In this document: in pieces, positions 58,264 to 64,000 of the stretch
Numbering within the stretch: position 1 is the stretch's first letter
Layout: every line of letters starts with the position of its first letter
From: Nitrospirales bacterium
GTDB lineage: Bacteria > Nitrospirota > Nitrospiria > Nitrospirales > UBA8639
NCBI GenBank assembly: GCA_031315915.1
Contig: JALDRK010000006.1
Location: forward strand, 62,001-126,000
Direction: 5' to 3'
Length of the DNA stretch: 64,000 nt
Notes under the pieces: model-generated
Databases searched by the model: none
The model's input: the letters and a program-made list of their open reading frames with translations, nothing else
Told to the model about the DNA's origin: nothing
Position numbers and translations under genes: made by a program

Positions 58264-59682
58264 TCAGACCGCTTGGCATGTGCAAATACAGTCGCATGTA
58301 CAGATGGCTCCAGGTGGGGTAGGCGAACCGCAAGGCATGGATCCACTTCCTCCAAAGCCAGGCCTAGTCCTCGGAATGGGAGAAGGTTTGATAGAGGGAA
58401 TAGTTCCTGGCACACAATCACACACACAGATACTCCCTGGTGGGGTAGGCGTTCCACAGGGTAGCGTATAGGTAATGGGGTGGCCCAGTGTTTTGTTAAA
58501 TATCTGGTAGGACTTTGCCTCCGTCTCCTTTTTGTTCGTGGAAGGATCGAATAAAAAACTCACAAAGCGTTGTTCTTCCAAATCCCATATTTGAATTGTA
58601 GTGTCTCGGGAGGCGGATATTAAATGCTTCCCATCAGGAGTAATGACCAAAGCTGTTACACGTTCAGTATGCCCCTCAAGGGTTCCAAGTTTTTCGCCAT
58701 TTCGAAATCGCCAAAGTTGAATGGTGTGATCAGCCGAACCCGAGGCGAGAGTTTTTCCATCCTGAGAAAAGGTTAGGACTGTAACAGAATCCGTATGTCC
58801 TTCCCATGCTTGGCGCAACCTCCCATCAAGCACATCCCAAATGCGAATACGGTGATCCGTGGATCCGGAAACGAATTTTTTGCCCTGTGGGGAAATGGCA
58901 AGGGCTGTGATCGGTCCATCCCCCTCTTTTAAGGTGATTTGAAGTTCCCGTTCTGGCAAATTCCATAATTCAATCGTTCCATCCGCAAACCCTGAAATCG
59001 CCGTTCGGCCATTGGAAGTCAGTGCGACAGTCGAGAGGGGGGCAAGGTGCCCCACGAGAACTCCGTCTGATTTAAGGAGGGAAAAATCCCAAAATTTTAT
59101 AGTTTGGTCAGATGACCCTGAGACAAGCAGTTGCTCATTCTGTGAAATTCCAACTCCGTTGACCTGTCCTGTATGACCATCGAGAGTTTCCTGTAGTTTC
59201 CCTTTCGGGAGATGCCAGATTTTAATGGTGTGGTCTTTGGACGATGAAACCAAACGTTTTCCGTCTGGTGTAATCGCCAAACCTAATACCGCTCCACCGT
59301 GGGCTTCCAAAGTGGTCAATAATTTTTTCTCCCGCAGATCCCAAAGCTTGATTTTGCCATCATCTCCACCAGAGGCTAGGAGTTCCCCTTCTGGGGAAAT
59401 CGCCAATTGATTGACTGCTTCAGAATGGGCATGCAGTAAATCTGAGCTGGTGGTATTGGCTATGTTCAAAATATTTCGATTGGCCTCTCCTCTGACCCAT
59501 CCTGCAGAGCGAAAGCCCATGAGACTCAGTACGGCACTCGCCGTCATTGCTGCCCCCAAAAATCCTCGCCGGTTCATTTGTGTCTGAACTGGGATTTCAG
59601 TCACGGGCACAATTTGAGGTTCTTCTTGAGATCCATCAGCATAGATGCGAGTTAGCCCAAAGCGTGGAAGTTGATATTTCAT
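58264..59682 (-). CDS. Tat-signal WD40 beta-propeller protein with Cys-rich double-repeat tail
   Basis: 472 residues. A twin-arginine motif NRRGFLG (residues 37-43) with hydrophobic helix AAMTASAVLSLMG follows an unusual 35-residue N-terminal extension. Seven WD40 units (85-385) end in IKLWDL, IKIWHL, IKFWDF, IELWNL, IRIWDV, IQLWRF and IQIWDL, giving one closed propeller. The tail (407-472) holds two units 42 residues apart: PCGTPTPPGSICVCDC and PCGSPTPPGAICTCDC, the second extended to ICTCQAV. The start overlaps the radical SAM stop by ATGA. The tail is the likely modified substrate; its chemistry is unknown. Confidence 0.88.
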   Translation of the reverse strand: MKYQLPRFGLTRIYADGSQEEPQIVPVTEIPVQTQMNRRGFLGAAMTASAVLSLMGFRSAGWVRGEANRNILNIANTTSSDLLHAHSEAVNQLAISPEGELLASGGDDGKIKLWDLREKKLLTTLEAHGGAVLGLAITPDGKRLVSSSKDHTIKIWHLPKGKLQETLDGHTGQVNGVGISQNEQLLVSGSSDQTIKFWDFSLLKSDGVLVGHLAPLSTVALTSNGRTAISGFADGTIELWNLPERELQITLKEGDGPITALAISPQGKKFVSGSTDHRIRIWDVLDGRLRQAWEGHTDSVTVLTFSQDGKTLASGSADHTIQLWRFRNGEKLGTLEGHTERVTALVITPDGKHLISASRDTTIQIWDLEEQRFVSFLFDPSTNKKETEAKSYQIFNKTLGHPITYTLPCGTPTPPGSICVCDCVPGTIPSIKPSPIPRTRPGFGGSGSMPCGSPTPPGAICTCDCICTCQAV

Positions 59683-61106
59683 AGAAGCATCTCTTTACCT
59701 GTAGTAGTTGTCGCCTGATCATTGGACGGTTCCTCATGCCAGAAGAGTCCACCGGCCTGAGCAATTTTTGTAAGAATTTGATCCTTGGTCAGTTCACGGG
59801 TGATGTGGCACCGCTCCGATCCCGCGAATTCTAATGTCCCATTGACGGACAGATTTTTATGATAGCAATCCCCGGCACAATGCCATTTGGCGAAACAGCC
59901 TTGACAGTATTCACGATGCTGAATAGATTGCTGACGAAGATGGGTTAATTTGTGAAGGTCAAATGTGTAGCCAGGTTCCTGTGGGACAGGTTTGCCGTAG
60001 AAAAAGACTGAAGCCCAGGGGTTGTCCTCGGAAAACACTTCGTAGCAGGCCGAGACATTTCCGTCGGGTGACAAAGCAAAGCTATCTTGGGTGATCCCGC
60101 AAAAATGGTTGGTGAGGAGACCCACTCGTGCGGCAGAATAAAAAATTTCCTTATTCCATTTATGCGCCCGCACCTGGGCTTCACGGAACATTTCGATAAA
60201 TTGGTTAGTTTCCGCAGAGACCGCCTCTTTCCAGCGGCCCAGTTGATAAGAAGGTTCGACTTGAATCCGTTGTGGGTGAAAGTGAGAACAAATATATTCA
60301 ATAGAATCTGCCAAGAAAGGAATTTGATCGGCGGTGACCGTGACTCGTATTCCATATCGAAATCCAGCTTGATCGAATCGGCTAATGGTTTGTGTAACTT
60401 GTTGGCTGGAACCCTGACCGAGAATGGTGAGACGGTGCCGGTCATGCACAGAAGGCAGCCCATCAAAAGACAAACTGACTCCATTCAAGTTGGCGATGAT
60501 CCAATCAATTTGTTTATCGTTTAACACCCCATTGGTGGCACTGGACGCATGAACTTCCAGCCCTAGCTCCCGAGCTTTGTCCCGAGCGTAGCGGAGGGAA
60601 TCTTCCATCACATGCCAATTGACGGTGGGTTCACCTCCTCCGTGGTAGGAAATCTCAAAATGGGAAACCTGCTTTTTCACAGCATTGCGAGCGACAAAGT
60701 CAATGCCTCGTCTGGCAGTAGCCCGGGGCATGAATTTCGTTGGGGTATCCCCAGCTGCGGCATAGCAATAGGTGCAGCGAAGGTTGCAAGCCGTTGTTAA
60801 AAACAGAGTAACCATTGTGGGTTCCGGGTCTCCCCTGAATGTCGTAATGGGCTTCAGTTCGGGGCCTGCATCGAGAATTTCTAGTTGGCGGAGGAATTCC
60901 AGGAAGGACGGGTCAAGATCGTCGTTACACAATGAGGATCCCTCTTTCAGGTCCGCCAGAGTATTCACCATACTGAGGTTTCCCACGAAAGCGGCCTTTC
61001 TTAGAGGTGCATAGATGAGATATTGATTATTGTCGAGAGGAATGGAAAAAAGTTCTGCGGTAACAACCGGGAGAACTTGAGTAGAGGATGCAAGGGCCTT
61101 GTCCAT
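59679..61106 (-). CDS. Radical SAM/SPASM maturase-like protein
   Basis: 475 residues from 61106, chosen for AGAGGAAAC upstream; a start at 61136 is possible. The N-terminal ~95 residues look like a PqqD/RRE-type peptide-binding domain (LFSIPLDNNQYLIYAPLRKAAF...LADLKEG). The radical SAM core starts TTACNLRCTYCYA (CxxxCxxC) with YHGGGEPTVNW. The SPASM region has NHFCGITQDSFALSPDGNVSACYE, then YCQGCFAKWHCAGDCYHKN and ERCHITREL, enough cysteines for two auxiliary clusters. Such enzymes modify ribosomal peptides. The coupled WD40 protein is the natural substrate candidate. Confidence 0.92.
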   Translation of the reverse strand: MDKALASSTQVLPVVTAELFSIPLDNNQYLIYAPLRKAAFVGNLSMVNTLADLKEGSSLCNDDLDPSFLEFLRQLEILDAGPELKPITTFRGDPEPTMVTLFLTTACNLRCTYCYAAAGDTPTKFMPRATARRGIDFVARNAVKKQVSHFEISYHGGGEPTVNWHVMEDSLRYARDKARELGLEVHASSATNGVLNDKQIDWIIANLNGVSLSFDGLPSVHDRHRLTILGQGSSQQVTQTISRFDQAGFRYGIRVTVTADQIPFLADSIEYICSHFHPQRIQVEPSYQLGRWKEAVSAETNQFIEMFREAQVRAHKWNKEIFYSAARVGLLTNHFCGITQDSFALSPDGNVSACYEVFSEDNPWASVFFYGKPVPQEPGYTFDLHKLTHLRQQSIQHREYCQGCFAKWHCAGDCYHKNLSVNGTLEFAGSERCHITRELTKDQILTKIAQAGGLFWHEEPSNDQATTTTGKEMLL

Positions 61107-61176
61107 AGTGTTTCCTCTATGTCTTGGATGTCCCATGATCTAGTTAAGGTTAAAAAGAACTTGTAAAATGGCCTTT

Positions 61177-61953
61177 TTATTCCAACAAAGAATCAATAAT
61201 CGTAGAAAAGTTTGAGAAAGGTCTGGCACCTGAAATGCGTTGGGCTTTGACCAATTTTTTCCCCTCTATCCGACCAATGAAAAAATAAGGCGTTCCACCG
61301 ACACCGATACTTTTGCCGTAGGTAAGGTCTTTTTCGACGTTTGCGACCTGCTTGGGGTCTTTCAGACAATCCTCGAACTCTTTTTCTCTTAAATTCAGGA
61401 CCTTGGCTTGCTCCGGGTAAAGAGAAGAACCAAGATGCTTTTGATTCTCAAATAGCTGGTGAACCATTGCCCAATATTGCCCTAGTTCACCCGCACATCG
61501 TGCGGCAACCGCAGCTTCTTTGGCATGGGCATGAAAGGCCAAGGGGAAATCTCGAACGGTATACAGAATCTTCCCTGTTCCAATGTATGCTTCTTGAAGT
61601 TTCGAAAAAGCCTCGAAATGATTCCGCTTACAAAAGGGGCACTGAAAGTCGGTAAACTCTACGATACCAATATTGGCATTAGAATCACCTAAAATCTGAC
61701 CATCCCCTAGAAATACGTCAACCTGTTGGGGCGGCGAGGGGGAAGGAGCTACGACCGAGGTTAAAGATTGTCGAAGCTGTAAGAAATCCTTTCTTAATTG
61801 CCCAATATCATTGCGAAGAGCTTTTAATTCATTGTGCATTTTTTCAAGCTGTTGAAGGACAGCCTGTTCACTCAAGTTAGAGGGTGAGGTATTCTGTGCC
61901 CAAACAAAGTCCTGGAGGAGAACTCCCCAAAAGGCGAAAAATACTATTTTCAT
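61177..61953 (-). CDS. Exported DsbA-like thioredoxin-fold protein
   Basis: 258 residues from 61953, where MKIVFFAFWGVLLQDFVWAQ forms a signal peptide; the ORF reaches 62004. A coiled coil (AVLQQLEKMHNELKALRNDIGQLRKDF) precedes the DsbA-type thioredoxin_4 domain with CPFC in IVEFTDFQCPFCKRNHFEAF and the cis-proline loop VGGTPYFFIG. It should act as a periplasmic disulfide oxidase or isomerase. It is 70 bases upstream of the radical SAM gene on the same strand, and the cysteine-rich tail of the exported WD40 protein is an obvious client. Confidence 0.9.
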   Translation of the reverse strand: MKIVFFAFWGVLLQDFVWAQNTSPSNLSEQAVLQQLEKMHNELKALRNDIGQLRKDFLQLRQSLTSVVAPSPSPPQQVDVFLGDGQILGDSNANIGIVEFTDFQCPFCKRNHFEAFSKLQEAYIGTGKILYTVRDFPLAFHAHAKEAAVAARCAGELGQYWAMVHQLFENQKHLGSSLYPEQAKVLNLREKEFEDCLKDPKQVANVEKDLTYGKSIGVGGTPYFFIGRIEGKKLVKAQRISGARPFSNFSTIIDSLLE

Positions 61954-62244: not shown

Positions 62245-64000
62245 TTAATTGCAGTCTAACCCTAATTCATACGCGCCCGTCGCGACCAGATTGTTGGCGG
62301 TGACCTTGATGACGTAAGTCCCACTCGCCGGCAAGGTGAGTGTCGGTTGGGACGGGCCGAAGCTTTGGAGGGCCACTCCGGTGGGTGAAAAGACTGTCGC
62401 GAATGGGAACTGGGAGACCGGCGTGAACCCGCTCGTCTCCGCCAGCTGAATCGTCACCACCTGCCCCGCCGTGCCCGTGAAGGTGAAGAGATCCGCCTCC
62501 GCCCCCGCCGCAATGGTGCCATCGAGGCGACTGCCGCAGCTTAAGGCCACCGCATCCGGGCTGGGTGGTATCACACATTCTATGCCTAGACCATAGGACC
62601 CGGTACTGGTGAGATCATTAGCCGTGACCTTGATGACGTAAGTCCCACTCGCCGGCAAGGTGAGTGTCGGTTGGGACGGGCCGAAGCTTTGGAGGGCCAC
62701 TCCGGTGGGTGAAAAGACTGTCGCGAATGGGAACTGGGAGACCGGCGTGAACCCGCTCGTCTCCGCCAGCTGAATCGTCACCACCTGCCCCGCCGTGCCC
62801 GTGAAGGTGAAGAGATCCGCCTCCGCCCCCGCCGCAATGGTGCCATCGAGGCGACTGCCGCAGCAAAGGCCACCGCATCCGGGCTGGGTGGTATCACACA
62901 TTCTATGCCTAGACCATAGGACCCGGTACTGGTGAGATCATTAGCCGTGACCTTGATGACGTAAGTCCCACTCGCCGGCAAAGTGAGTGTCGGTTGGGAC
63001 GGGCCGAAGCTTTGGAGGGCCACTCCGGTGGGTGAAAAGACTGTCGCGAATGGGAACTGGGAGACCGGCGTGAACCCGCTCGTCTCCGCCAGCTGAATCG
63101 CCATCACCTGCCCTGCCGTGCCTATGAAGGTGAAGATGTCTTCCTCTCCTGCTCCAACAATTGATCCCGCTGTCAAATCACCGCATCGGAGTTCAATTTC
63201 TTGTGGCGGGTGGGGTTGCGGGATTAACATTTATGGTGACTTCATCAAACGCTTGCAACGCGCCGTCATCGGCTGTTAGGCGCAACACGTAACTACCAGC
63301 CACGGTGAAGTTGGCTGTCGTCGCTACCCCGGTCGCGTTAGTAAAGGTCGTGGTGCCTGGCCCACTGCTCTGAGTCCACTGAGTGGTGACGGCCCCCGGT
63401 GGATTCGGCAACCCATCATCGATCACCGTGCCAACAAGAGTCGCCGCACTCGGCAAACTAATTATCTGATCTTGCCCTGTTGCAACTGTTGGCCCCTGGT
63501 TTGTGGGGATGACAGTGTCTAAAGGGGGTTCGGTATTCGCGGGGAATTCAACAAAACTGGAATCCCCCGTAATCCCCACATCGAGGATACAGTTGTCAAG
63601 TAAGACAGGATCTGTGATGCCGGCAGCCCGACAAATCTGTTCGGCCTCTTCTCGTATGCTAGGATCGAGATGCGCTGCCGTAAAAAACCCGACGGGGAAG
63701 TTTCGGTCGGTGTGTGTTTCCGTGGTATTGCCATCAATATAATCGAATAGGCTTTCTTCCTGCGTAATCCGCCACGACTCGCCAAACTGCTTGTAAAGCT
63801 CATCGAGGGTTAGGCGGGTACTGAAAACGATCCCCTGGCGAGTGACAAGTTCATTCTCTCGCATGCCATCGAAGTTCCCAAGCAACCCTTGCACCTGGTT
63901 CTGTCTAGATCTGGTAAGTAAGACCGTTAGGTTAATGTGAGAACTCATCGACGTGACTTTAACCCGACTGCCGTCAGGCCATCCTATGGTGTGGGTCCTC
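62245..64000 (-). pseudogene. Large exported adhesin-like protein (vWD, PKD, PPC repeats), partial and frameshifted
   Basis: The frame is open at the right window edge, reading HTIGWPDGSRVKVTSM, then VQGLLGNFDGMRENELVT: the end of a von Willebrand type D domain. ICRAAGITDPVLLDNCILDVGITGD follows, then a PKD-like domain (about 63200-63480) ending FDEVTINVNPATPP. A frame change near 63195 leads to three PPC-like units of 108 residues (GTAGQVxxIQLAETSGFTPV...GTYVIKVTAN). A second frame change near 62865 is due to one missing base relative to the next unit. Either a pseudogene or repeat-induced assembly errors. Confidence 0.65.
62288..63230 (-). repeat. Three tandem 324-bp repeats encoding PPC-like units
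   Basis: The same sequence recurs at 62301, 62625 and 62948 (spacings 324 and 323). The first two units are almost identical base for base over their full length; the third diverges after about 160 bases. The one-base difference (AGCTTAAGG versus AGCAAAGG) causes the frameshift in the middle unit. Confidence 0.85.

Follow-up and report, generated by a model that had tools for sequence, protein, structure and literature searches.

SPASM-type radical S-adenosylmethionine (SAM) enzymes are mostly known to act on small peptides and on a few enzyme subunits. Here we describe a two-gene locus in a 64,000-nucleotide stretch of a Nitrospirales bacterium genome (assembly GCA_031315915.1, contig JALDRK010000006.1, positions 62,001 to 126,000; hereafter the window). 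In it, such an enzyme, the putative maturase, is encoded beside a large protein, the carrier, that combines a twin-arginine translocation (Tat) signal, a WD40 propeller, and a cysteine-rich C-terminal tail. The same pairing of a SPASM-type enzyme with a tag on exported binding proteins that are large and folded occurs in many phyla. Among open papers we found no description of a SPASM or radical SAM enzyme with a WD40 protein, a Tat signal, or a propeller; subscription papers and preprints fall outside that scope, so a prior description is possible, and PMC7159879 concerns other systems.

By analogy, the nearest described system in logic is QhpD, a SPASM enzyme that acts in the cytosol on a protein yet to be exported and needs a 28-residue leader for the interaction (PMC7876137). 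As with QhpD and its substrate QhpC, the SPASM gene of the window adjoins the gene of a protein substrate, although modification of that protein is here putative. In the Qhp system the protease QhpE cuts the leader and the ATP-binding cassette (ABC) transporter QhpF exports the product, whereas the leader-like motif of our carrier is fused to a Tat signal. Unlike in quinohemoprotein amine dehydrogenase (QHNDH), propeller and putatively modified segment lie in one chain. Compared with the Paracoccus operon, the neighbors of the window genes that we read include no qhpA, qhpB, or qhpC, no alpha, beta, or gamma subunit, no subtilisin, and no ABC exporter. With these partner genes not found there and a family score under the cut-off (given below), we rejected membership of the QHNDH system.

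Two peptide systems are closer in sequence. CteB, which acts on the SCIFF peptide (thermocellin type), shares with our maturase an N-terminal domain resembling the recognition element (RRE) of ribosomally synthesized and posttranslationally modified peptides (RiPPs), a radical SAM core, and a seven-Cys SPASM domain, but its substrate is a short Cys-rich peptide rather than a folded exported protein. PapB and its ranthipeptide precursor PapA offer a Cys-rich, leader-dependent substrate, leader use being presumed at our locus. PapB is permissive on Cys-to-Asp spacing (PMC9413430). The tail of the carrier differs in lacking CX3D repeats, in mostly having Asn rather than Asp, and in belonging to no short peptide; among the small frames near the maturase we found no PapA-like precursor with CX3D repeats.

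A SPASM gene overlaps the gene of a Cys-tailed Tat-signal protein

The two genes and their parts are as follows.

58264..59682, minus strand: carrier gene (472 residues), with leader-like N-terminus, Tat signal, seven-bladed WD40 propeller, and Cys-rich tail (sequence, Pfam, predicted structure)
58267..58461, minus strand: Cys-rich tail, residues 408-472, with all 10 Cys of the carrier (pattern, Cys count)
58552..59433, minus strand: seven-bladed WD40 propeller, residues 84-377 (Pfam, predicted structure)
59494..59574, minus strand: Tat signal NRRGFLGAAMTASAVLSLMG..., residues 37-63 (sequence; conserved register across 72 carriers)
59602..59625, minus strand: pre-Tat leader-like motif EEPQIVPV, residues 20-27, in fixed register ahead of the twin arginine (carrier alignment)
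59679..61106, minus strand: radical SAM/SPASM maturase gene (475 residues; NCBIfam, Cys conservation, fold)
59808..60101, minus strand: SPASM domain with seven invariant Cys, C336 to C433 (invariant in 43 relatives)
60765..60788, minus strand: radical SAM CX3CX2C motif, C107, C111, and C114 (invariant in 43 relatives)
60879..61067, minus strand: N-terminal RRE-like (PqqD-like) domain, residues about 14-76, predicted beta-beta-beta-alpha-alpha (AlphaFold2)

An initial annotation, made from the letters of the window, had named these two genes and a DsbA-like neighbor; all three are present on the minus strand where it placed them, and the maturase stop and carrier start do share four bases, ATGA, at 59679-59682. 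Its description of the carrier also holds. The N terminus carries a twin-arginine signal with a hydrophobic core (NRRGFLGAAM, including the motif NRRGFLG), and seven WD40 repeats are matched by Pfam (WD40, 6.8e-74, in seven stretches), with 28 strands predicted at residues 90-377. In an AlphaFold2 model the propeller has seven blades, with high confidence from residue 84 to 377 and low confidence for the leader and the tail. Residues 1-406 contain no Cys, and the last 66 residues (407-472) contain ten, arranged in two copies of PCG(S/T)PTPPG(A/S)IC(T/V)CDC plus CICTCQAV, the repeated Cys-rich C terminus that had been claimed. The window contains two matches to the tail pattern, and none arose in 100 shuffled versions of it. 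Additional carriers among the remaining WD40 proteins of this genome were considered and rejected, as the parts read show 1 to 4 Cys, no CxC cluster, and no Cys-rich region.

For the maturase, the annotated radical SAM fold with a SPASM-type C terminus is borne out by the CX3CX2C motif and a complete seven-Cys SPASM pattern (C336-x12-G349-x4-C354, C401-x2-C404-x5-C410-x3-C414, and C433); all ten of these Cys are invariant across 43 relatives. The AlphaFold2 model (pLDDT, the predicted local distance difference test, 88.9) has CteB as its best solved relative by fold (5wgg and 5why; E about 5e-20; template modeling scores 0.69 and 0.74; 463 aligned columns with 5wgg), and CteB is also the best by sequence profile (3.6e-48). 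Against NCBIfam, the best match is PapB (NF047865; 149.3 bits versus a cut-off of 340), SCIFF (TIGR03974; 125.3 versus 425) and QHNDH maturation (TIGR03906; 121.4 versus 453) are also hit, and the protein falls far under the cut-off of every named maturase model matched. In all 43 members the nearest NCBIfam models include PapB, SCIFF, and QhpD, all of which make Cys thioethers. The leader-like motif of the carrier and the RRE-like predicted fold of the maturase may correspond to the leader and the RRE-containing enzyme of RiPPs in general, with binding between the two presumptive.

Tail and maturase occur together across phyla

We scanned 84,980 species genomes with the pattern PCGxxxPxGxxCxC[ND]C and obtained 82 stretches, of which two (L027 and L031; L and G numbers denote loci and genomes) were chance matches and were dropped, leaving 80 genuine loci; this carrier set is defined by one strict pattern, in draft genomes with contig breaks. 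A maturase homologue lies in the same 8-kb stretch in 61 of the 80 loci, within 150 bases in 50, and on the strand of the tail gene in 60 of the 61. Ten of the remaining 19 have one in flanking sequence, no more than about 7 kb off (L012, the locus with that distance, L028, L029, L037, L043, L046, L052, L071, L074, and L075), for a total of 71/80. Three others (L021, L024, and L039) have maturases elsewhere in the genome, four (L025, L048, L051, and L072) sit at contig ends, and for two (L076 and L079) no maturase homologue was found.

The pairing also appears in the opposite direction. In surveys of five phyla (1,443 genomes), with the maturase profile alone as query and E-value limits deciding membership, 14 of the 16 clade members lie within 6 kb of a tailed gene. 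Leaving out the five search centers gives 9 of 11, and among these nine G102 has a diverged tail missed by the strict pattern. When both features were searched in 438 genomes, the strict tail pattern occurred in six of the eight genomes with a clade maturase, a seventh having a diverged tail, and in one of the 430 without, where the hit is by chance and the remaining motif is missing. The proposed SPASM enzyme dedicated to the tail of a Tat-exported protein is supported by pairing in both directions and by a single maturase clade. The refuting condition set in the initial annotation, homologous maturases that lack a Cys-tailed neighbor, applies in part: two clade members (G122 and G1056) have no such neighbor in reach, and more distant maturases partner free CxC-rich peptides. 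The idea of an overlooked small precursor peptide close to the maturase was rejected: the sole small frames with at least five Cys overlap other genes, and none makes a convincing rival precursor. The gene pairing is real and widespread across phyla.

In a maximum-likelihood tree of 87 rows (L150 and L195, long or mis-chosen, have placements that we did not use), one branch with a Shimodaira-Hasegawa-like approximate likelihood ratio (SH-aLRT) support of 96 holds 70 maturases, 68 tail-linked and 2 unlinked, a count partly given by construction. Because the tail led to most rows of the tree, the phylum surveys alone are independent evidence. The window maturase lies in a sub-branch (support 99) with rows from Verrucomicrobiota, Acidobacteriota, Bacteroidota, and Pseudomonadota, most at 52-69% identity, while 59 relatives of its own family and order hold no comparably close homologue (best, 33%). 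This mixture of phyla around the window maturase suggests horizontal transfer.

Directly outside the clade stand maturases that adjoin free CxC-rich peptides. Those of Nitrospirota relatives (L002-L004, L192, and L193) resemble our system in that related maturases, at about 30% identity, lie beside CxC-rich substrates, but these substrates are small (116-122 residues in L003), carry CSC-EGKPGPG-CSC repeats, and lack the tail motif and a Tat signal. These five loci each encode a SPASM maturase with one or two such proteins in a conserved frame (MPDKPVRAIDPLGI...), a candidate RiPP pair without a name.

The tail is joined to unrelated bodies

The recurring motif of the 80 loci is PCGSPIPxGAxCxCNCVPG, and their record titles name Chloroflexota, Acidobacteriota, Bacteroidota, Verrucomicrobia (Opitutales), Armatimonadota, Proteobacteria, Planctomycetota, Gemmatimonadota, Nitrospirae, and one Acidimicrobiales bacterium. 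The pattern was absent from viral contigs, and no NCBIfam or Pfam model covers the tail. Conservation extends to positions left free in the search: T at -2 (86/91), A at +9 (85/91), V or I at +16 (91/91), [YF]TL ahead of the motif, S, A, or T at +3, and P at +4. Most tails end in YW[YH]PN or in a CTCVPV-type sequence. Next to the tail Cys, the conserved residue is Asn in 81/91 carriers, although both copies in the window carry Asp.

WD40 domains form the body in 19 of 34 carriers (a set picked to include odd ones), and other bodies are SH3_3, a ConA-like GH43_C2 domain, an Ig-like domain, or unassigned. The initial annotation, in describing a tailed WD40 protein, had therefore identified the commonest cargo but drawn the body too narrowly. 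Carriers range from about 240 to 1,240 residues, and some genomes encode several. On a Candidatus Chlorohelix plasmid, a related maturase adjoins two Tat proteins with the same tail, one with WD40 repeats and one with an unrelated body. The cultured member Flexilinea flocculi (L046/L114) likewise carries adjacent genes for tail and maturase. At the level of sequence, the tail behaves as a portable module.

Some loci vary this arrangement. In L019, L036, L075, and L086 the frame runs on beyond the tail (e.g., PSDRNVKDEFETVD in L036), so that the tail may sometimes be internal. On a Caballeronia plasmid (L006:5089-5562), a small Tat protein beside a maturase has its CxC-rich stretch directly after the signal and not at the C terminus, and a Bacteroidales genome with several maturases (G084; L182:7014-7436) encodes a 141-residue CxC-rich protein that ends in YWYPC and has no large body.

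A leader-like motif precedes the Tat signal

The N-terminal stretch ahead of the twin arginine is about 26-57 residues long in the carriers, longer than in a usual Tat signal. It contains a motif that the initial annotation missed, E-x-P-[EQ]-[VI]-[YFV], in fixed register before the twin arginine; the window has EEPQIVPV followed by eight residues and then the RR, which comes after M-N. When 72 carriers were aligned on RR, P stood at -15 in 57, E at -17 in 49, V or I at -13 in 58, and Y, F, or V at -12 in 58. The motif is present in 60 of the 72, with P at the same distance in 55 of these and one residue further in 4, and among 570 control windows taken from the bodies the same expression matched one. 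It is retained by 14 of the 15 carriers that have no WD repeats, so the motif travels with the tail and the maturase and not with the body. We infer a RiPP-like leader joined to the Tat signal. A single unrelated Tat protein passed our comparison filter, too few to set the motif against ordinary Tat signals; the other seemingly tail-less cases had a frameshift or break, ran into the end of the stretch, or carried a tail yet stayed below the filter.

Proposed modification and alternative readings

We propose, with a probability of roughly 0.75, a two-gene protein-maturation system in which a leader-docked SPASM enzyme cross-links the tail of the carrier and Tat exports the product. The carrier would be made with its leader-like motif before the Tat signal, a folded binding domain, and the Cys-rich tail, and the RRE-like domain of the maturase would dock on the leader. 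In the reducing cytosol the enzyme would then install bonds in the tail, most likely Cys-to-carbon thioethers, because its nearest relatives CteB, PapB, and QhpD make them. Tat would export the folded, modified carrier, and signal peptidase would remove leader and signal together, leaving an extracytoplasmic binding protein with a cross-linked tail. WD40, SH3_3, ConA-like, and Ig-like domains are typical binding domains; combined with a stabilized tail, they suggest a role in recognition outside the cytoplasm.

Several observations weigh against this proposal. The clade maturases of G122 and G1056 have no tailed gene in reach, and the clade count in the tree is in part a product of rows found through the tail. 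Within the subclade of the window the leader motif is variable, and it might be no more than a Tat-related feature. Finally, the thioether acceptors of QhpD and PapB are Asp or Glu, versus the Asn that usually neighbors the tail Cys, so the chemistry may differ from a Cys-Asp bond.

This last point bears on the strongest alternative, that the tail is a metal-binding or disulfide-rich domain on which the enzyme makes another modification, such as epimerization or C-C or C-O bonds. CxC-rich tails look metallothionein-like, SPASM enzymes perform many chemistries, and Asn, not Asp, usually neighbors the tail Cys; with the nearest fold and families (CteB, PapB, SCIFF, and QhpD) all making Cys thioethers, we hold this rather unlikely, though worth serious attention. 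The portability of a C-terminal element, found on varied exported proteins, sometimes several per genome, and often closing in the conserved YW[YH]PN, could instead mark a sorting or anchoring signal of PEP-CTERM- or LPXTG-like logic that the enzyme readies for attachment or export. No sortase- or exosortase-like gene was recognized among the recurring neighbors, the tails shown have no hydrophobic segment, and in a few loci (L036, L019, and L086) the frame extends well beyond the tail, which makes such a signal improbable.

A somewhat poorer candidate still is a small modified peptide, cut from the carrier and released as a RiPP, with the carrier as delivery vehicle. Distant maturase relatives do partner free CxC-rich peptides, and RiPPs are usually cut, but neither a protease nor an ABC exporter was recognized as a consistent neighbor, and the conserved Tat signal and folded body would be needless in a throw-away carrier. 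That the adjacency is coincidental and the maturase acts on an unrelated peptide is very hard to credit given two-way pairing across many phyla, even with two clade maturases lacking a tailed neighbor in reach.

Returning to a cross-linked, Tat-exported carrier, a more general form of the proposal can be put forward tentatively, at somewhat less than even odds: a portable tag, in which one SPASM enzyme, guided by a leader in Tat register, would cross-link a C-terminal tag on structurally unrelated binding domains and keep them from Tat until modified, so that export would be proofread by the enzyme. Tat proofreading chaperones of the TorD and DmsD type are maturation factors that bind near the Tat signal and delay export until maturation; here, unlike there, the factor would be the modifying enzyme itself. 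If the proposal is true, large folded exported proteins would be a new kind of substrate for a chemistry known mainly from small peptides. It raises testable questions: whether radical SAM modification serves as a general protein tag, whether a Tat signal can at the same time act as RiPP leader, and what the tail does outside the cytoplasm. Together, the leader and the portable tail would also offer a practical means of placing cross-links on chosen proteins.

Neighboring genes and other loci

The third gene named in the initial annotation lies upstream of the maturase.

61177..61953, minus strand: DsbA-like exported thiol oxidoreductase (258 residues), a neighbor (sequence, Pfam)

Its product has the CPFC motif and matches Thioredoxin_4 (8.6e-27) and DSBA. 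The role assigned to it within the system did not survive comparison: no homologue of it was found beside any other member, the window's own copy alone matching, and for this reason it is not a conserved partner and probably lies outside the conserved system. Beyond it, at 62245-63230, near-identical PPC-type domain repeats span two overlapping frames, which suggests that a single gene is frameshifted between repeats, near 62850.

Among the other loci, extended clusters with one to three more radical SAM genes occur mostly in Chloroflexota (L005, L008, L018, L026, L049, L207, and others). Small proteins recur in these clusters (families in 22 and 15 loci), some of them PqqD-like in size and look. 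On Edwardsiella and Salmonella plasmids (L007 and L210), a distant SPASM enzyme is accompanied by a small gene and an ABC transporter, and in L007 also by an S8 protease, apparently a different peptide cluster.

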